In this document: one piece after another, positions 28,609-38,085 of the stretch
Numbering within the stretch: position 1 is the first letter of the stretch
How the letters are laid out: every line of letters begins with the position of its first letter
Assembly: GCA_003695625.1 (NCBI GenBank)
Contig: RFIB01000069.1
Coordinates: forward strand, 1 to 38,085
DNA: 38,085 nucleotides
Direction of reading: 5' to 3'
Source of the DNA: Acidobacteriota bacterium
GTDB lineage: Bacteria > Acidobacteriota > Polarisedimenticolia > J045
Notes under the pieces: generated by a model
What the model was told of the DNA's origin: nothing
Seen by the model: the letters and a program-made list of their open reading frames with translations, nothing else
Databases searched by the model: none
Made by a program: the position numbers and the translations under genes

Positions 28609-29076
28609 TCAGCGCCGCGCACGGAAGAACGACCGCAGCAGCGCAGCGGACTCCTCGGCGAGCAGCCCGCCCTCGATCGCGAACGCGTGATTGAGCCCGA
28701 GGTCGGCCGCGGTCCGGTCGGCAAACAGCCGCGTCGCTCCGACCTTGGGGTCCGGCGCGCCGAAGACGAGCCGGTCGATCCGCGCGTGGACCATCGCGCC
28801 GAGGCACATCAGGCACGGCTCGAGCGTGACGTAGAGCGTCGTGCCGGGCAGGCGCGGAGCGCCGAGAGCACGCGCCGCCTCGCGCAGCGCGAGCATCTCG
28901 GCATGCGCGGTCGGGTCGGTCCGGCCGAGCGGCGCGTTGTGCGCCACGCAGACGAGGCGCCGGTCCCGGGCCACCACGGCGCCGATCGGCACCTCGCCCG
29001 CGGCGACCGCGGCGCGGGCGGCGTCGAGCGCACGCCGCATCATCTCGAGGTCGAACGCGGAATCGGGGGCTGTCAC
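28609..29076 (-). CDS. tadA: tRNA(adenine34) deaminase
   Basis: MMRRALDAARAAVAAGEVPIGAVVARD...DPTAHAEMLALREAAR...LYVTLEPCLMCLGAMVHARIDRLVFGAPDPKVGA. Confidence 0.95.
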   Translation of the reverse strand: MTAPDSAFDLEMMRRALDAARAAVAAGEVPIGAVVARDRRLVCVAHNAPLGRTDPTAHAEMLALREAARALGAPRLPGTTLYVTLEPCLMCLGAMVHARIDRLVFGAPDPKVGATRLFADRTAADLGLNHAFAIEGGLLAEESAALLRSFFRARR

Positions 29077-29091
29077 GATCGGATCGGCGGA

Positions 29092-29168
29092 TGGCGCACC
29101 CGCAGGGATTCGAACCCCGAACCTCCTGATCCGTAGTCAGGTGCTCTATCCAATTGAGCTACGGGTGC
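29092..29168 (-). tRNA. tRNA-Arg (anticodon ACG), CCA encoded
   Basis: GCACCCGTAGCTCAATTGGATAGAGCACCTGACTACGGATCAGGAGGTTCGGGGTTCGAATCCCTGCGGGTGCGCCA. Confidence 0.97.
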
Positions 29169-29258
29169 CCTCGGAAGCGAGCGCAGATGGTAGCCCGCAC
29201 CCCCGGACCGGTCAAGAAAACGGCGCGGAGCGGACCGTGCCGGCGCGAAGACGCACGA

Positions 29259-29286
29259 ACGCCGAGGCTCGTGCGAACCTCGGCGT
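29259..29286 (-). terminator. Hairpin downstream of precursor-like peptide gene, possible terminator
   Basis: ACGCCGAGG(29259-29267)-10 nt loop-CCTCGGCGT(29278-29286); no strong U-tract. Confidence 0.45.
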
Positions 29287-29323
29287 CCTGTGGCCGGATC
29301 GCGCCGGCGGGCTCGGGCGGCCC

Positions 29324-29530
29324 TCAGCGCAGTCCGGGGAACAACCTGTGACCGCGCCCGATGCCGGAGCGCCGGCCGGGGCCGGTGCCCCCGCCGTAAC
29401 CCTGCGCCGGCCCGAGCACCTGCTGGAGCTGTTCCGGGGTGAAGGTCTGGACCTCGGGGGCCTGGTAGCCCTCCCGGTCCTCCGTCTCGGCCCTGGCCTC
29501 GAGCACCTCCGGCCGATTTCCGTCGGTCAT
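29324..29530 (-). CDS. Small precursor-like peptide (68 aa; RiPP-precursor-like architecture)
   Basis: RBS GGAGGG 6 nt before ATG; MTDGNRPEVLEARAETEDREGYQAPEVQTFTPEQLQQVLGPAQGYGGGTGPGRRSGIGRGHRLFPGLR: acidic leader-like N-term, Gly/Arg-rich C-term, adjacent PqqD-like gene. Confidence 0.65.
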   Translation of the reverse strand: MTDGNRPEVLEARAETEDREGYQAPEVQTFTPEQLQQVLGPAQGYGGGTGPGRRSGIGRGHRLFPGLR

Positions 29531-29578
29531 CGTCTTCCCTCCGATGTCCGGGGCTGACATCGCACCGCGACGGCTATG

Positions 29579-29607
29579 CATATACGGCGGCCCCGCCCCC
29601 CCGGCAA
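29579..29607 (-). promoter_or_regulatory. Candidate sigma-70-type promoter for the small peptide gene
   Basis: Minus strand TTGCCG-17 nt-TATATG; predicted TSS ~42 nt before the ATG at 29530. Confidence 0.55.
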
Positions 29608-29636
29608 GGTTTACCGGCGCGAAAATCACCGCTCGT

Positions 29637-29927
29637 TCAGTCGGCGCCGGCCGGCTCCGCGGCCAGGACGATCAGGCCGTTCTCGCTGAATGTCCGCAGC
29701 GTCCGCTCGACGTCGTCGCGGATCCGCCCCGGATCGACCGAGGGGTAGTGCCGGGCCACCTCCCGGGCGATCCCGCCGGCGTCGTGGGCGCCGTCGCACA
29801 ACTGCCAGACCAGCCGCGCGGTCGGATTCAGCAGGTGGTAGAGCCGGCGCTCCTCGTCGTAGACGAGCAGCTCGGAGCCGAGTTCCTCGGCCTTGAGGGT
29901 CAGCTTCGTCCTCGGATACCCGCCCAC
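29637..29927 (-). CDS. PqqD-like (RiPP recognition element) protein
   Basis: GTG start with GGAG RBS; LTLKAEELGSELLVYDEERRLYHLLNPTARLVWQLCDGAHDAGGIAREVARHYPSVDPGRIRDDVERTLRTFSENGLI matches the PqqD fold pattern (LN.TA..VW.LCDG). Confidence 0.82.
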   Translation of the reverse strand: MGGYPRTKLTLKAEELGSELLVYDEERRLYHLLNPTARLVWQLCDGAHDAGGIAREVARHYPSVDPGRIRDDVERTLRTFSENGLIVLAAEPAGAD

Positions 29928-30483: not shown

Positions 30484-31086
30484 ATGATCAGGACGGGAAT
30501 CTCGTCCGCAGGACGGTGGTGCCGGATCGCCGCCGGACTCGCTGTTCTCCTCGCTACGGTCGCGTCGCCGGCCCCGGCCCAGGAGGCCGAGGTGCTCGAG
30601 CGGCGTCCGCCGTTCCGGGTCGGCATCGCCGACGTGCTCGAGGTGTTCGTCTTCGAGGACGGCACGCGCGAGGAGTGTCTCGTCCGGCCGGACGGGATGA
30701 TCTCGCTCCCGCTCGCCGGAGCCATCCGCGCCGCCGGCCGCACGCCGGAGGAGATCGCCGAGGGGATCGCCCAGCGGCTCGGCAAGTACTACGAGAACCC
30801 GACCGTGTCGGTGAAGGTGCGGGAGATCAACTCGTACCGCGTCTACATTCTCGGCAAGGTCGGCAGCCAGATGATGATCTCGTCGGTCGCGCCGATCCGC
30901 CTGCTCCAGGCGCTGGCGATCGCCGGTGGTCCGGACGAGTTCGCGTCCGGCCGCGCGATCGTGCTGCGCGAGAAGCCGGAGGGCGGACAGGAGCGGTTCG
31001 AGATCAACTACGAGAAGATTCTCAAGGGCTCCGCGCCGGACCAGAACATCTGGCTCCAGCCGAACGACCTGGTGGTGGTCCGGTGA
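30484..31086 (+). CDS. Polysaccharide export protein (Wza family, Poly_export + SLBB)
   Basis: Signal peptide; FRVGIADVLEVFVFEDGTREECLVRPDGMISLPLAGAIRAAGRTPEEIAEGIAQRLGKYYENPTVSVKV..YRVYILGKVG. Confidence 0.93.
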   Translation: MIRTGISSAGRWCRIAAGLAVLLATVASPAPAQEAEVLERRPPFRVGIADVLEVFVFEDGTREECLVRPDGMISLPLAGAIRAAGRTPEEIAEGIAQRLGKYYENPTVSVKVREINSYRVYILGKVGSQMMISSVAPIRLLQALAIAGGPDEFASGRAIVLREKPEGGQERFEINYEKILKGSAPDQNIWLQPNDLVVVR

Positions 31087-32306
31087 TCGGCCGTGCCCCG
31101 CGGTGCGGCTTCGCGGCCGCCGCGATCCTGCTTGCGTCGGCGTCCGGACCGGCATCGGCGGCCGCATGGCGGTTCGAGCCGGTCGTCGACGTGCGCGTCG
31201 AGCGCACCGACAACGTCCAGCTCGACGACCCGCGCATCACCGACGGCGAGTCGGCGACGATCCTGCGCACCGGCGTCCGGCTGAGCGTCGAGCGCGAGAC
31301 GCCGCGGTCGTCGTGGTCGCTGGCCTGGCGCCCGGTGCGCGAGACCTACGACGGGTTCTCCCAGTACGACAACACCGCGCATGCCGCGACGCTCGGCTGG
31401 TCGTGGCAGGCGTCGCGGCGCGCGAGCTGGTCGCTTGCCGGCACCTGGACGCGGACCGAGCGGGCGCGCGTCTCGCTCGACGAGGGATCCGAGCTGATCG
31501 ACGTGATCGACGTCGGCGTGGTGCGGACGACGACCTGGTCGGGCCGCCTGCAGGGCCTGCTGACCGGCGGGCCGCGCAACCGGTTCGTGGTCGCCGCGGA
31601 CACCTTCGGGACGAGCTACGCGAGCGACGCGCCCGGTTTCGCCGCGCTCGACGACGCGCGGACGACCGGCGCCGAGCTGGCGTGGGAGACCGATCTCGGC
31701 CCGCGGACGGTCGGCGGACTCTCGGTGCGCGCGAGCCGCATCGACGAGGGCCGGCGCGGCGAGTACGACACGCGCACGGTGCTCGTCGGATTCCGTTTCG
31801 GCGCGGTCGAGCGCCTGCAGGTGACGCTCGCCGCGGGGGTGACGGCGACCGACGTGCGCGATCCGGGCGTGTTTGCCGCCATCGACGTGCCGAACACCGA
31901 GACCGGGCGGATCGTGCTCGCGCGCCGGATCGGCGCGCGCACGACGCTCGCCGCCGGCGTGGCGCGCTCGGTCGACTCGTCGCGCGGGGTCGGCGGCGTG
32001 TCGGTCAACGACCGCGCCTACCTGCGCCTGTCGCGCGACCTCGGTCCGCGCCACACGATCGCCGCCGCGATCAACTGGACCGACCGCGATCCGGTCGAGG
32101 ACGACCCGCTGACCGGCGTCGACCGCGGGCTGCGCACCGCGGGCTACCGGCTCGAGTGGGCGGCGCGGCTCGGCCGCCGCTGGGCGCTGGTGCTCGCCGG
32201 CGACCGCATCGACCAGAGTGCGGCCACGGAGGGAGCGGTCCCCGAGATCGACCGCACGATCTGGTCGCTCGGACTCCGCTGGAGCCCGCTGGCTCCGGCG
32301 CGCTGA
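31083..32306 (+). CDS. Outer-membrane beta-barrel protein of the EPS locus
   Basis: GTG start overlapping wza stop; signal peptide; FEPVVDVRVERTDNVQLDD...; repetitive amphipathic strands. Confidence 0.8.
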   Translation: MIGRAPRCGFAAAAILLASASGPASAAAWRFEPVVDVRVERTDNVQLDDPRITDGESATILRTGVRLSVERETPRSSWSLAWRPVRETYDGFSQYDNTAHAATLGWSWQASRRASWSLAGTWTRTERARVSLDEGSELIDVIDVGVVRTTTWSGRLQGLLTGGPRNRFVVAADTFGTSYASDAPGFAALDDARTTGAELAWETDLGPRTVGGLSVRASRIDEGRRGEYDTRTVLVGFRFGAVERLQVTLAAGVTATDVRDPGVFAAIDVPNTETGRIVLARRIGARTTLAAGVARSVDSSRGVGGVSVNDRAYLRLSRDLGPRHTIAAAINWTDRDPVEDDPLTGVDRGLRTAGYRLEWAARLGRRWALVLAGDRIDQSAATEGAVPEIDRTIWSLGLRWSPLAPAR

Positions 32307-32333: not shown

Positions 32334-33794
32334 ATGCAGCAGAACCCGCTCATCAAGGAATACCTCGACATCGCCTTCCGCCGGAAGTGGTGGATCGTCG
32401 TGCCGACGCTGCTCGGGATGCTGTTCTCGACCGCGCTCTACTTCCGGGTCGAGAAGCTCTACATGGCGGAGACGCGCGTCCGCACGAGCCCGCAGGAGAT
32501 CTCGGAGCGCCTGCTGCAGCCGATCGTCGAATCCGACGCGCAGCAGCTCGTCACGTCGATCACCGCCGAGATCACCTCCGAGGAGTACGTCCAGGAAGTC
32601 GACGAGGAGCTGCACCTGGTCGGCTCGCCCGGCGGTCCGCGCGATCTGACCGAGCTGGCGCGGTGGCTCGACCGCGCGATCCGGCTCGAGCCGAACCCGC
32701 GCAACCAGTTCTTCGACCTCAAGGTGAGCTGGAACGATCCCAAGCTGGCCGCGGCGATCGCCAACAAGCTGGCGCAGATCTACATCGACCGCTACTCCGA
32801 GATCCGCCATGAACTCGCCTCCGGCACCCTCGACCAGCTCCGCAAGCACCGGCAGGAGGTCGAGGACCGGCTGCGGGAGGTGCGCGAGCGGATCGAGAAG
32901 TTCCGCAGCGAGCACAAGTACGAGCTGGCGTCGTACCAGGACGAGAACCGGCTCCAGTTCGACAACAACATGCGCGAGATCGAGCGCCTCGCGCAGCTCA
33001 ATCGCGACCTGCGCGGGCAGATCGAGGACATCGACCTCCGGCTGCGCGCCGGCCTGCCGGCCGCGGGCGGCGGGGGCGCCGCGATCGATCCACGCCTCGC
33101 GCGGCTCGAGTCGCTGCGGACCCAGTACAACGAGCGCCGTGCCCAGGGACTCAAGGACGACCATCCGGAGGTCCAGGCGCTGCTCGACCAGATCCGCGCG
33201 CTGGAGCGCGAGATCGGCGTCCCGTCCGGGGAGGAGGAGGGCGCCGCCGAGCCCGGCCTGTCGCCCGCCGCGCTCGACCGGATCCAGCTCGAGCGCCAGA
33301 AGCAGCGCCTGCTCGAGGAGATCCGCATCAACGAGGGCAAGATCGCCGCGCTCCAGGCCGAGAACGAGGTCATCCGCCGGCGCCAGGAGCGCACCCCGGA
33401 CAACCAGATCCAGCTCGACAACATGCTGCAGCTCGAGGCCCAGCTCCAGCAGGAATACGACGACGCCCGCTCCCGCGAGCTGCGGGCGCAGACCGGCGAG
33501 ATGGTCGAGGAACTCGGCCGCGGCGAGAAGTTCGACGTGCTCAAGTACGCGCGCCCGCCGGGCGAGCCGTACTGGCCCGACTTCAAGCTGTTCCTGCTGA
33601 TGGGCCTTGCCGTCGGGCTCGGTCTGGGCGTCAGCGTCGTGCTGCTGCTCGAGGTGTTCGACCAGTCGTTCAAGAGCGAAGAGCAGCTCGCCGCGGCGAT
33701 CGACCTGCCGATCCTCGCGGTGATTCCGGATCTCAACCGCGTTGCCGACCAGAAGACGCGCCGCCGCACCGCGCGCGACCGGAGGGCATCGTGA
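32334..33794 (+). CDS. Chain-length determinant protein (Wzz/GNVR family)
   Basis: N-terminal and C-terminal TM segments flanking long coiled coil; KEYLDIAFRRKWWIVVPTLLGMLFSTALYF...LFLLMGLAVGLGLGVSVVLLLEVFDQSFKSEEQLAAAIDLPILAVIP. Confidence 0.93.
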   Translation: MQQNPLIKEYLDIAFRRKWWIVVPTLLGMLFSTALYFRVEKLYMAETRVRTSPQEISERLLQPIVESDAQQLVTSITAEITSEEYVQEVDEELHLVGSPGGPRDLTELARWLDRAIRLEPNPRNQFFDLKVSWNDPKLAAAIANKLAQIYIDRYSEIRHELASGTLDQLRKHRQEVEDRLREVRERIEKFRSEHKYELASYQDENRLQFDNNMREIERLAQLNRDLRGQIEDIDLRLRAGLPAAGGGGAAIDPRLARLESLRTQYNERRAQGLKDDHPEVQALLDQIRALEREIGVPSGEEEGAAEPGLSPAALDRIQLERQKQRLLEEIRINEGKIAALQAENEVIRRRQERTPDNQIQLDNMLQLEAQLQQEYDDARSRELRAQTGEMVEELGRGEKFDVLKYARPPGEPYWPDFKLFLLMGLAVGLGLGVSVVLLLEVFDQSFKSEEQLAAAIDLPILAVIPDLNRVADQKTRRRTARDRRAS

Positions 33795-34603
33795 TCCGCC
33801 GCCGCGGTCGCGAACCGGCGGCGGAGGCCGACCGCCGCGGTCCGTCGACGGGCGCGGTGCGGCCGGCCGGGGGCTCGCGGCGCGTGCCGCGCGACCTGGC
33901 GCCGAATCCGCTGCTGCTGCCGATCGTCGATCCGCGCTCGCCGGTCACCGAGCGCTACCGCCGGATGACGACCCACATCGAACACCTCGGCGCGCGGGAC
34001 GATCACCCGTACCGGATGATCGTGATCACCTCGAGCCGCGAGGCCGAGGGCAAGACGCTGACCTCGATGAACCTCTCGCTGGTGCTCGCCGAGGATCGCG
34101 ACCGCAAGGTCGTGCTGGTCGACTGCGACCTGCACCGGCCGCGCGTGCACCACTTCCTGCTCAGCAAGCCGCGCATCGGCTGGATGGACGTGTTCGAGGA
34201 CCGCGCCGAACTCGACGCGGCCATCGTCAGTCTCAACCAGAGCCGGCTCAAGCTGCTGCCTGCGGGGCGTCCGCCGGACAAGCCTGCCGAGGTGATCCGC
34301 TCCGAGCGGTTCCGCCGCCTGCTGCGCCAGCTTCGCGACCGGTTCGACGCCGTGATCCTCGACGCGCCGCCGCTGATGCGGTTCGTCGACGCCAACATCC
34401 TCAACTCGCATGCCGACGGGCTCGTGTTCGTGATCCGTGCCGGGCTGACCTCGCGCCAGATCGTGCGCAAGGCGCTGGCCCAGATCACGACCGGCCGCGT
34501 GATCGGCGCCGTGCTCAACGACGTGCGCTACTCGCTCGTCGATCGGTACTACTACCGCTACGACGAGTACGGCGGGAGCTACTACGACCGTGACGAGCGC
34601 TGA
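33791..34603 (+). CDS. CpsD/CapB-type tyrosine-protein kinase (BY-kinase), stand-alone
   Basis: MIVITSSREAEGKTLTSMNLSLVLAEDRDRKVVLVDCDLHRPRVH (Walker A/A'), VILDAPP (Walker B), C-terminal Tyr cluster YYYRYDEYGGSYYDRDER. Confidence 0.92.
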   Translation: MIRRRGREPAAEADRRGPSTGAVRPAGGSRRVPRDLAPNPLLLPIVDPRSPVTERYRRMTTHIEHLGARDDHPYRMIVITSSREAEGKTLTSMNLSLVLAEDRDRKVVLVDCDLHRPRVHHFLLSKPRIGWMDVFEDRAELDAAIVSLNQSRLKLLPAGRPPDKPAEVIRSERFRRLLRQLRDRFDAVILDAPPLMRFVDANILNSHADGLVFVIRAGLTSRQIVRKALAQITTGRVIGAVLNDVRYSLVDRYYYRYDEYGGSYYDRDER

Positions 34604-35666
34604 CAGCGGCTGGAACGGCGTGCGTGTCGTCGCCCTCGGCGGCGGCACGGGGCTTCCCGTCGTGCTGCGGGGGCTCAAGGCGGAGCTGTTCCGCGGTGGC
34701 GGCCCGGTCGACCGCTCGCGACTGACCGCGGTCGTCACGGTGACCGACGACGGCGGATCGTCCGGCCGGCTGCGGCGCGAGCTGGACATGCTCCCCCCCG
34801 GCGACATCCGCAACTGCCTCGTTGCGCTGTCCCACGAGCGCCCGCTCGTCGCGCGGCTGTTCCAGGCGCGCTACCGCGCCGGGGAGACGCTCGAGGGCCA
34901 TTCCTGCGGCAACCTCGTGCTCGCCGCGCTGGCCCAGGAGGAGGGCGGCTCGTTCCTCGACGCGATCGAGGTCGCCTCCGCCGTGCTCAACGTGCGCGGC
35001 CGCGTCCTGCCGCTGACGCTCGAGCCGTGCCGGCTGGTCGCCCGCCTGGCCGACGGCGCCGAGCTGGCCGGCGAGTCGGCGATCGCCGGACGCGGGGGCC
35101 GCATCGAGCGCCTGCGCGTCGATCCGCCCGACATCCCGCCGACCCCCGGCGTCGTCGAGGCGATCGAGTCGGCCGACATCGTCGTGCTCGGTCCGGGCAG
35201 CCTGTTCTCGAGCCTGGTGCCCAACGTGCTCGTTCCCGAGGTCGTCGGCGCGCTGGGACGGACGCGCGCGTTCCGCGTGCTCGTGCTCAACGCGATGACC
35301 GAGCAGGGCGAGACCGGCGGACTGACCGCGGCGGGCCATGCGCGCGCGGTGATCGAGCACGCCGGGTTCCCGGTGCTCGACGCCGTGCTCGTCGCCAATG
35401 ACGCCATCCCCGCCGAGGTGATCGAACGCTACCGCGCCGAGGGGGCCGGCCGCATCGAGCCCGACGACCCGGAGCTCGAGACGCTGGTGCCGATGGTGAT
35501 CCGCGCCTCGGTGCTGCAGGCAGGGCCGAAGGTGCGCCACGATGCGCTGCTGACGGCGCGGACGATCCTGCGCGCCCACCGCGTCTGGCGTCGTCGCGGG
35601 CGGATTGCCGAGCCCGAGCGGCTGCGGCCGCGGCGCCGCGCCGTGGTGCGAGGGCCTCGCCGATGA
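34590..35666 (+). CDS. yvcK: YvcK/CofD-family (gluconeogenesis factor-like) protein
   Basis: VVALGGGTGLPVVLRGLK...LTAVVTVTDDGGSSGRLRRELDMLPPGDIRNCLVALS...VLGPGSLFSSLVPNVLVPEV; GTG start. Confidence 0.93.
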   Translation: MTSADSGWNGVRVVALGGGTGLPVVLRGLKAELFRGGGPVDRSRLTAVVTVTDDGGSSGRLRRELDMLPPGDIRNCLVALSHERPLVARLFQARYRAGETLEGHSCGNLVLAALAQEEGGSFLDAIEVASAVLNVRGRVLPLTLEPCRLVARLADGAELAGESAIAGRGGRIERLRVDPPDIPPTPGVVEAIESADIVVLGPGSLFSSLVPNVLVPEVVGALGRTRAFRVLVLNAMTEQGETGGLTAAGHARAVIEHAGFPVLDAVLVANDAIPAEVIERYRAEGAGRIEPDDPELETLVPMVIRASVLQAGPKVRHDALLTARTILRAHRVWRRRGRIAEPERLRPRRRAVVRGPRR

Positions 35667-37588
35667 TGCGGCGCCGCCTGCAGCCGGGCTGGGTGATCCT
35701 GGCCAAGATGACCACCGACGCGGTGATCTGCGGTGGCTCGCTGCTCGCCGCGTTCGCGTTCCGCTTCGGCGCCGGGCTGGGCCAGGAGCAGCTCGACCTG
35801 GCGCTGCGCGCCCTGCCGCTGGCGATCGTCACCAAGCTGGTGTTCTTCGCGGCGCTCGGCACGTACGGCACCTTGTGGCGCTACTCGTCGGTCAACGACA
35901 TGTTCCGGCTGATCCGCGCCACGTTCTTCGCCACGCTCGCGCTGTTCACGCTGCTGTACGTCGTCGGGCTGCGCGTGCCGAGCGGCGTGATGATCGTCGA
36001 CTTCGTGTTCACGCTCGTCGCCGCCGGCCTGGTGCGCCTCGCCCCGCGGATCGTCCGCGAGCGGATGGGCCAGGGGCCGCTGGCCTACCTGCCCGATCCG
36101 CTGCGGCGGCTGCTCTCGTCGGGTTCGCCGGGAAGCAGCGAGCGCCGGATCCTGGTCGTCGGTGCCGGCGACGCCGGCGAGAACCTGGTCCGGGAGATGG
36201 TGCGCAACGAGCGGCTGGGCATGTTCCCGGTCGGCTTCGTCGATGACGACCCGCTCAAGAAGGGGCTGCGGATCCACGGCGTCAAGGTCCGCGGCACGCG
36301 CCACGACATTCCGCGGCTCGTCGAGCAGCACCAGGTCGACGAGATCCTGATCGCGATTCCGTCGGCGACCGCCGAGGACATCCGGCCGATCGTCGACATC
36401 GCCCGCGACACCAAGGCGCGGATCAAGATCCTGCCCGACCTGGCCAGCCTCGTGCACGGCTCGCCGCGGCTGTCCGACGTGCGCGACCTGCGCATCGAGG
36501 ACCTGCTCGGGCGGCCGCGGATCGAGCTGGACACGCCGCGCGTCGCGGCCTACGTCGAGGGACGCCGGGTGCTGGTCACCGGCGCCGGCGGGTCGATCGG
36601 CTCCGAACTGTGTCGCCAGCTGCTGCGCTTCCGCCCCGCCGAGCTGATCCTGTTCGGACGCGGCGAGAACAGCATCTTCGCGATCGCCAACGAGCTGGCG
36701 CCGCGCGCCGGCGAGACGCGCCTCGTGCAGGTGATCGGCGACGTGATCAACAAGCGCAAGCTCGAGGGCGTGTTCGAGCGCTGCCGGCCGGAGATCGTGT
36801 TCCACGCCGGCGCCGACAAGCACGTGCCGCTGATGGAGCTGAATCCGGACGAGGCGGTGCTCAACAACGTGCTCGGCACGCGCAACGTGCTCGAGGTGTG
36901 CAACGACTTCGAGGTCGAGAAGGTCGTCTGCATCTCGACCGACAAGGCGGTCAACCCGACGAGCATCATGGGCTGCTGCAAGCGCGTCGCCGAGCTGTAC
37001 ATCCAGTCGGGACGCTACCCGAAGACCTGCGTGACCGCGGTGCGCTTCGGCAACGTGCTCGGCAGTCGCGGCTCGGTGATCCCGGTGTTCCAGAAGCAGA
37101 TTGCCCGCGGCGGGCCGGTGACCGTGACGCACCGCGAGGTGCGGCGCTACTTCATGACGATCCCGGAGGCGGTGGCGCTGGTGATCCAGGCCGGCGCGAT
37201 GGCGCGCGCCGGGGAGATCTTCGTGCTCGACATGGGCGAGCCGGTCAAGATCGACGATCTGGCGCGGCGGATCATCCGGCTGCACGGCCTCGAGCCGGAG
37301 CGGGACATCCCGGTGATCTACACCGGCCTGCGTCCCGGCGAGAAGCTCGACGAGGAGCTGGTCGGCACGCGGGAGGACCGGCAGGAGACCGATCACCCGA
37401 AGATCTTCAAGGTCGCCCGGGCCGCCGAGGTGCCCGACGATCTCGACCGGCTCGTCGACGAGCTGATCCGGCAGGCGGTGGCGATGGACGACACCGGAAT
37501 CCGGCGCACGCTGCGCCGGATCGTCCCGGAGTACGTGCCCTACACGCCGCCCGAGGTCGAGACGTGGACCGCGGAGAGCGAGCGATGA
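35663..37588 (+). CDS. CapD/EpsC-like nucleoside-diphosphate sugar epimerase/dehydratase, membrane-anchored
   Basis: N-terminal TM helices; RRILVVGAGDAGENLVREM; VLVTGAGGSIGSELCRQLLRF; HAGADKHVPLMELNPDEAVLNNVLGTRNV; CISTDKAVNPTSIMGCCKRVAE. Confidence 0.96.
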   Translation: MMRRRLQPGWVILAKMTTDAVICGGSLLAAFAFRFGAGLGQEQLDLALRALPLAIVTKLVFFAALGTYGTLWRYSSVNDMFRLIRATFFATLALFTLLYVVGLRVPSGVMIVDFVFTLVAAGLVRLAPRIVRERMGQGPLAYLPDPLRRLLSSGSPGSSERRILVVGAGDAGENLVREMVRNERLGMFPVGFVDDDPLKKGLRIHGVKVRGTRHDIPRLVEQHQVDEILIAIPSATAEDIRPIVDIARDTKARIKILPDLASLVHGSPRLSDVRDLRIEDLLGRPRIELDTPRVAAYVEGRRVLVTGAGGSIGSELCRQLLRFRPAELILFGRGENSIFAIANELAPRAGETRLVQVIGDVINKRKLEGVFERCRPEIVFHAGADKHVPLMELNPDEAVLNNVLGTRNVLEVCNDFEVEKVVCISTDKAVNPTSIMGCCKRVAELYIQSGRYPKTCVTAVRFGNVLGSRGSVIPVFQKQIARGGPVTVTHREVRRYFMTIPEAVALVIQAGAMARAGEIFVLDMGEPVKIDDLARRIIRLHGLEPERDIPVIYTGLRPGEKLDEELVGTREDRQETDHPKIFKVARAAEVPDDLDRLVDELIRQAVAMDDTGIRRTLRRIVPEYVPYTPPEVETWTAESER

Positions 37589-37590
37589 CG

Positions 37591-38085
37591 TCAGAGGCGA
37601 TGCGGCGCCAGCCGGCGGACCACGCGCCAGGCGGACATCTCGGCGAGCTGCAGCAGCCGGCCGGCGAGGCCCGTGCCGCGACGCAGGACGCCGGTGCCCG
37701 CCTCGCGCTGGCACGCGCGCTCGAACGCGTTGCGTCGCACGAACGTCGCCAGGCAGCGGCGCGGGTCGGGCGAGAGCCAGGTGCGCACGAGGTGCGGTGC
37801 GAGGCGCCCGCGACCGGGACCGGCCGCCAGCGGGAGCTCGTGGGCGCCGAGCCGGGCGAGCCGGGCCGCGGTGCGCGGCGGCAGCTCCGGCAGCGCGGCG
37901 AGCGCCTCGGCGAGCGGCGTGCCGAGCAGCCGCGCCGTGGACTCGACCAGCAGCCGGAGGGCGGCGGCCAGTCCCGCGCGCGCCGCGTCGTCCGCGATGC
38001 GGTCCCAGCGCAGCGGCAGGCCGCGCCGCGCCAGCCGGTCCAGGTCGACGAGCGGCTTGAACTCGGTGAACCCGTCGCGCAGCGA
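37591..38085 (-). CDS. Putative nucleotidyltransferase (NTP_transf_5-like), truncated at window edge
   Basis: Open frame without start inside window: SLRDGFTEFKPLVDLDRLARRGLPLRWDRIADDAARAGLAAALRLLVESTARLLGTPLAEALAALPEL...; FKPLVDLDRL and W..I...A...GL..AL pattern of this family. Confidence 0.55.
   Translation of the reverse strand, partial: SLRDGFTEFKPLVDLDRLARRGLPLRWDRIADDAARAGLAAALRLLVESTARLLGTPLAEALAALPELPPRTAARLARLGAHELPLAAGPGRGRLAPHLVRTWLSPDPRRCLATFVRRNAFERACQREAGTGVLRRGTGLAGRLLQLAEMSAWRVVRRLAPHRL

Follow-up and report, generated by a model that had tools for sequence, protein, structure and literature searches.

The closest described relatives of the locus considered here are the linear polyphosphorylated peptides (LPPs) of Bacillota, whose precursors carry the leader motif YxxPxVLxHQxIxFETxxS and are accompanied by an HprK-like kinase, an NTP transferase, phosphorylation of core Ser3, an SpI-type leader peptidase and an MsbA-like exporter; in LppB, the residues that hold the YxxP leader are N33 and D70, with N33A almost abolishing and D70A reducing complex formation (PMC13381572). 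A second pairing, recognized in NCBIfam as HPr-rel-A, combines an HprK-related kinase (TIGR04352) with a PqqD protein (TIGR04353), and its names include no client peptide. The RRE fold is further shared by the B1 proteins of lasso peptide systems (TbiA–TbiB1, 5v1u/5v1v; TfuB1, 6jx3), which pair with leaders of the form [Y/W]xxPx[L/V/I], and by PqqD of PQQ biosynthesis (5sxy, 3g2b). Within the set of papers searched, nothing was returned on HPr-rel-A, on PqqD together with exosortase or on precursors with the GPAQ leader described below.

The window, a 38,085-nucleotide contig from an Acidobacteriota bacterium taken over its whole length (RFIB01000069.1, assembly GCA_003695625.1), carries a two-gene cassette, encoding a small precursor-like peptide and a discrete PqqD/RRE protein, beside a divergent exopolysaccharide (EPS) operon. 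The features of the locus are as follows.

28609–29076, minus strand: tadA-like deaminase, a conserved flank of the locus (synteny)
29092–29168, minus strand: tRNA-Arg(ACG), flanking the cassette
29257–29288, minus strand: 14-bp stem-loop directly 3' of the peptide gene (fold z = -4.5)
29324–29530, minus strand: gene of the 68-aa precursor-like peptide (ATG at 29530, stop to 29324, GGAGGG upstream)
29327–29395, minus strand: tail of the peptide (putative core region), a Gly/Arg-rich linker with RLFPGLR at the end
29396–29467, minus strand: conserved leader segment Y22–Y45, YQAPEVQTFTPEQLQQVLGPAQGY (residues invariant in the family, recurrence elsewhere)
29637–29927, minus strand: discrete PqqD/RRE protein, 96 aa plus stop (GTG at 29927, GGAG upstream; PF05402 and AF2 model)
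30484–31086, plus strand: Wza-like protein for EPS export, whose gene opens the divergent EPS operon (TIGR03027, 107.8 bits, cut-off 180)
31083–32306, plus strand: outer-membrane beta-barrel-like EPS protein (TIGR03016, 35.9 bits, N-terminal part)
32334–33794, plus strand: Wzc-type chain-length protein (TIGR03007, 154 bits; orthologues in 11 family genomes)
33791–34603, plus strand: EPS tyrosine autokinase (TIGR01007, 127.7 bits, over cut-off)
34620–35666, plus strand: YvcK/CofD-like protein (TIGR01826, 322 bits)
35663–37588, plus strand: CapD/PglF-type nucleotide-sugar dehydratase
37591–38085, minus strand: NTP_transf_5 nucleotidyltransferase, C-terminal end only because the contig stops within the gene (profile positions 194–249)

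Both cassette genes lie where the initial annotation had placed them, each with the start codon and upstream motif given above, and are read on the minus strand in the order PqqD then peptide, with 106 bp between them; the stem-loop is a possible transcript end, though it has no clear T-run. In profile searches the peptide matched no Pfam or NCBIfam family, a genome-wide search found no paralogue in its own genome, and plasmid-borne relatives were absent at BLAST sensitivity. The PqqD assignment of its neighbor was borne out by profile search (PF05402, 53 bits, cut-off 23.4). None of the NCBIfam PqqD-specific models exceeded its cut-off, the best being a lasso-type model (32 of 70 bits); the protein reaches 23 of 35 bits for the HPr-rel-A model and 21.6 of 46 bits for the PQQ-specific model. 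The AF2 model (pLDDT 93.9) comprises a strand sheet followed by three helices, the winged-helix RRE fold, and its best Foldseek matches are lasso B1 RREs with bound YxxP leaders (TbiB1 and TfuB1; TM 0.71–0.85), followed by PqqD. LppB residues N33 and D70 (9x8z) align with N34 and D72 of the window protein, both of which are invariant in all 10 cassette PqqDs, so that the proposal that the peptide is the client of this protein is well supported. Family genomes also encode PqqD domains other than that of the cassette. One such domain is N-terminal in an 835-aa protein with seemingly M50-type membrane and HlyD-like parts (G000:C185 8203-10710, L100), and a PqqD domain inside an open frame of ~500–950 aa recurs in most family genomes.

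Full-length homologues of the peptide are present in 10 of the 12 genomes of the bacterial family (E values from 1e-11 to 1e-42; even the most distant shares about half of its residues), and the named relatives are Acidobacteriota MAGs. Strong matches to the cassette PqqD profile (136–153 bits) occur in exactly these 10 genomes, and the peptide gene is always directly downstream of the cassette PqqD on the same strand. The order of the locus, read as far as each contig reaches, is the same in all 10: tadA side, peptide, PqqD and then the divergent EPS operon (Wza, barrel, Wzc, autokinase, YvcK, CapD), in support of the suspected link to EPS. One genome lacking the peptide (G009) likewise lacks that operon and an orthologous Wzc (best match 26% identical); in the other (G011), Wzc is present and the contig stops in the Wza region, short of the cassette position. 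No modifying enzyme lies next to the cassette in any of the 10 loci. An exosortase/PEP-CTERM (XrtA) system was considered and rejected, PF09721 being found in 0 of 12 family genomes; the EPS genes are XrtA-like but under the cut-offs, except for the general TIGR01007 kinase.

The 68-aa peptide and the 96-aa PqqD are thus real, conserved genes and not chance open frames. Comparison of two same-genus genomes, with small counts, gave pN/pS ratios of 0.14 for residues 22–45, 0.20 for residues 46–68 and ~1.2 for residues 1–21. These sequence comparisons indicate strong purifying selection on the segment YxxPx[VI]xT...ExLxxLGPAQG[YF], place the start of the conserved leader at Y22 and show the acidic stretch upstream of it to be unconstrained. 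Of the leader-like segment originally described, the motif therefore stands, in the form YxxPxVxTFxxEQLxxxLGPAQ, but the acidic N-terminus is not conserved. In the alignment of the 10 family peptides, P25, T29, E33 and G40-P-A-Q-G-Y45 are invariant, as are R62, P65, G66 and R68 in the tail, which is kept to its last residue. The family tails have no conserved Ser or Thr, that of G002 having neither at all, and the window peptide's tail contains no Asp or Glu.

Beyond the family, YxxPxIxT...ExLxxLGPAQ[GA] recurs in small open frames of other families of the class that have unrelated tails, which is the pattern expected for a leader and a core and agrees with the earlier placement of the putative boundary near GPAQ. 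The leader is found at E ≤ 1e-5 in 20 of 396 Acidobacteriota genomes, 19 of them from the window's own class, within which the peptide and PqqD co-occur (Fisher p = 1e-7, relatedness ignored). In families f4, f9, f11 and f12, the leader peptides are located apart from PqqD, and those of f4, f11 and f12 are mostly near a CitMHS-like transporter gene (names assigned by eye from sequence). G010 and G002 each have another YxxP peptide beside a PqqD; since the similarity of these two to the GPAQ leader is weak (E = 9e-4 in G010, 0.075 in G002), they are treated as separate families. The G002 set (G002:C174 7627-9864, L184) lies near Wza/Wzc and comprises PqqD, a weak S24/S26 peptidase match, a P-loop kinase-like protein and a 49-aa YEVPRL peptide; it is LPP-like, with a leader of another family. 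The set of G010 (G010:C74 7448-10273, L185) lies in an EPS locus and comprises NTP_transf_5, PqqD, a divergent kinase-like protein with no Pfam match and a 47-aa peptide, MNTTKKPYAKPSIKG....

The window's genome encodes an HprK-like kinase on a different contig (G000:C187:7810-8811; 156 bits, and 59 bits for TIGR04352, cut-off 200). Throughout the family, this kinase is unlinked to the cassette and outside the tadA/EPS locus; all 11 family members that carry the EPS operon have it, mostly between the same housekeeping genes, and it is matched only weakly in G009, the one without the operon. With presence set at ~145 bits, the 41 genomes of the class divide into 18 with both peptide and kinase, 1 with the peptide only, 4 with the kinase only and 18 with neither (Fisher p = 6e-7, phylogeny ignored); outside the family, counted by genera, 7 have both, 3 the kinase only and 11 neither. 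A later search recovered a related leader peptide from two "kinase only" genomes, G026 and G020, the G026 peptide being already in that search profile. G029 has PqqD and the kinase with no peptide detected, and G019 (80% complete) has the peptide and PqqD without a strong kinase match.

In other families, these genes come together. PqqD adjoins an HprK-like kinase at the equivalent tadA/EPS locus in seven genomes of f4 and f12, most of these loci also containing a sugar transferase. In G026 (G026:C60 2107-5380, L182), a leader peptide (MASNRRPYEAPSITSYTESEIMERMG...), PqqD, an HprK-like kinase and NTP_transf_5 stand in a row in an apparently complete operon, and the leader matches the GPAQ profile with an hhalign E value of 1.9e-7; a second locus in G004 carries a GPAH peptide, kinase, PqqD and NTP_transf_5. 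The N-terminal part of the G026 NTP_transf_5 protein appears peptidase-like by eye, without Pfam support. In G009, a separate region (G009:C438 5361-12132, L106) brings together PqqD, NTP_transf_5, a radical SAM/SPASM protein and what may be an HprK-like protein. The two possibilities raised in the initial annotation were a maturase encoded elsewhere and, as the other option, a new, minimally modified peptide type linked to EPS assembly; the former fits best, in that presence of the cassette goes with presence of the unlinked HprK-like kinase, and this kinase is the best candidate for a maturation enzyme of the window peptide, judged from gene content.

NTP_transf_5 nucleotidyltransferases are known partners of such peptide systems, and one lies at the end of the EPS locus away from the cassette. 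The genome's single NTP_transf_5 gene seems to lie in two pieces, one at the window end (37591–38085) and the other, the N-terminal part (profile positions 3–214), at positions 1–781 of contig C210 (L212), suggesting that the two contigs adjoin. Hence the earlier statement that the window holds no maturase needs a small correction: the window does carry part of one candidate modifying enzyme. The family occurs in 37 of the 41 genomes of the class, so its presence alone is weak evidence.

Set against the described systems, the cassette is nearest to the LPPs but is not a member. Shared with them are a discrete RRE with conserved counterparts of LppB N33 and D70, a YxxPxV leader, an HprK-like kinase and an NTP transferase encoded by the genome and a setting rich in glycosyltransferase and EPS genes. 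Membership fails on the leader, in which YxxPx[VI] is followed by T...LGPAQ instead of HQxIxFETxxS, and on the lack of a conserved core Ser3; furthermore, the kinase is unlinked, the host is an acidobacterium, and neither peptidase nor exporter was seen at the window locus, the weak S24/S26 match of G002:C174 being the only one beside a PqqD. HPr-rel-A likewise combines PqqD with an HprK-related kinase, but both proteins of the window's genome fall below its curated cut-offs, and PQQ biosynthesis shares the fold and the PF05402 domain but has a client, PqqA, unlike this peptide. That the peptide is a lasso precursor is suggested by the resemblance of its YxxPx[VI] motif and of the RRE to lasso A and B1, but is to be dismissed as hardly credible: Transglut_core3 (the B2 protease) occurs in 0 of 11 family genomes, and a tail without Asp or Glu offers no macrolactam ring acid at position 7–9.

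By analogy, the cassette may work like the LPP and paeninodin-type phosphorylation systems, and the explanation that fits it best is a split RRE pathway of which it holds the binding half, with the kinase in trans and the nucleotidyltransferase in the EPS locus. We consider it reasonably probable that the 68-aa product is a precursor and PqqD its RRE, which would offer the tail to enzymes acting in trans, likely the C187 kinase. The N-terminal half, YxxPx[VI]xT...LGPAQ, would be the leader, taken up as an added beta-strand, Tyr22 and Pro25 sitting in pockets as in structures of relatives; PqqD would then present the Gly/Arg-rich RLFPGLR tail, the kinase would modify the peptide, presumably by phosphorylation, the EPS-linked NTP_transf_5 might act next, as happens in pathways of the LPP and paeninodin type, the leader would be removed, and the product would probably act with, or report on, the adjacent EPS machinery. 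A further elaboration, that the peptide is phosphorylated in trans and joined through NTP_transf_5 to a sugar or nucleotide, thereby capping, priming or anchoring EPS, seems to us improbable. With no conserved Ser or Thr in the tail, an LPP Ser3-like core phosphosite is not supported, and nothing else argues as strongly as this lack against simple core phosphorylation.

The same lack leaves room for a different reading, in which the peptide is an unprocessed small regulatory protein bound to PqqD, with the RLFPGLR tail or PqqD docking on the EPS machinery, for instance on the tyrosine autokinase or on Wzc. Conservation of the tail to its final residue within the family, the constant divergent EPS operon and the 0 of 10 family loci with an adjacent modifying enzyme would all suit such a regulator, but outside the family the leader is kept and the tail is not, and in G026 and G004 the same leader family stands in operons that also encode a kinase and a nucleotidyltransferase; we regard this reading as unlikely, if worth keeping in view. 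We give little credence to the two genes being neighbors only, with an unrelated small gene beside a PqqD that serves another client: separate peptide and PqqD loci in other families and the further PqqD domains in family genomes speak for this, but the 10 of 10 adjacency with joint absence, the class-wide co-occurrence with PqqD (a test that ignores relatedness) and the agreement of motif and pocket residues with known RRE–leader pairs argue that the peptide is probably the client of this PqqD.

PqqD and HprK-like kinase genes occur in EPS loci across the class with no named substrate, and the GPAQ-leader peptides are a concrete, conserved candidate client for these sets, making what they act on testable with three proteins. 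These findings suggest an Acidobacteriota counterpart, with its gene sets split, of the LPP-type RRE/HprK/NTP_transf_5 pathways, which the literature confines to Bacillota. What emerges, from a little-studied branch of the Acidobacteriota, is a probable new family of processed peptides, with a likely modifying kinase encoded elsewhere in the genome.
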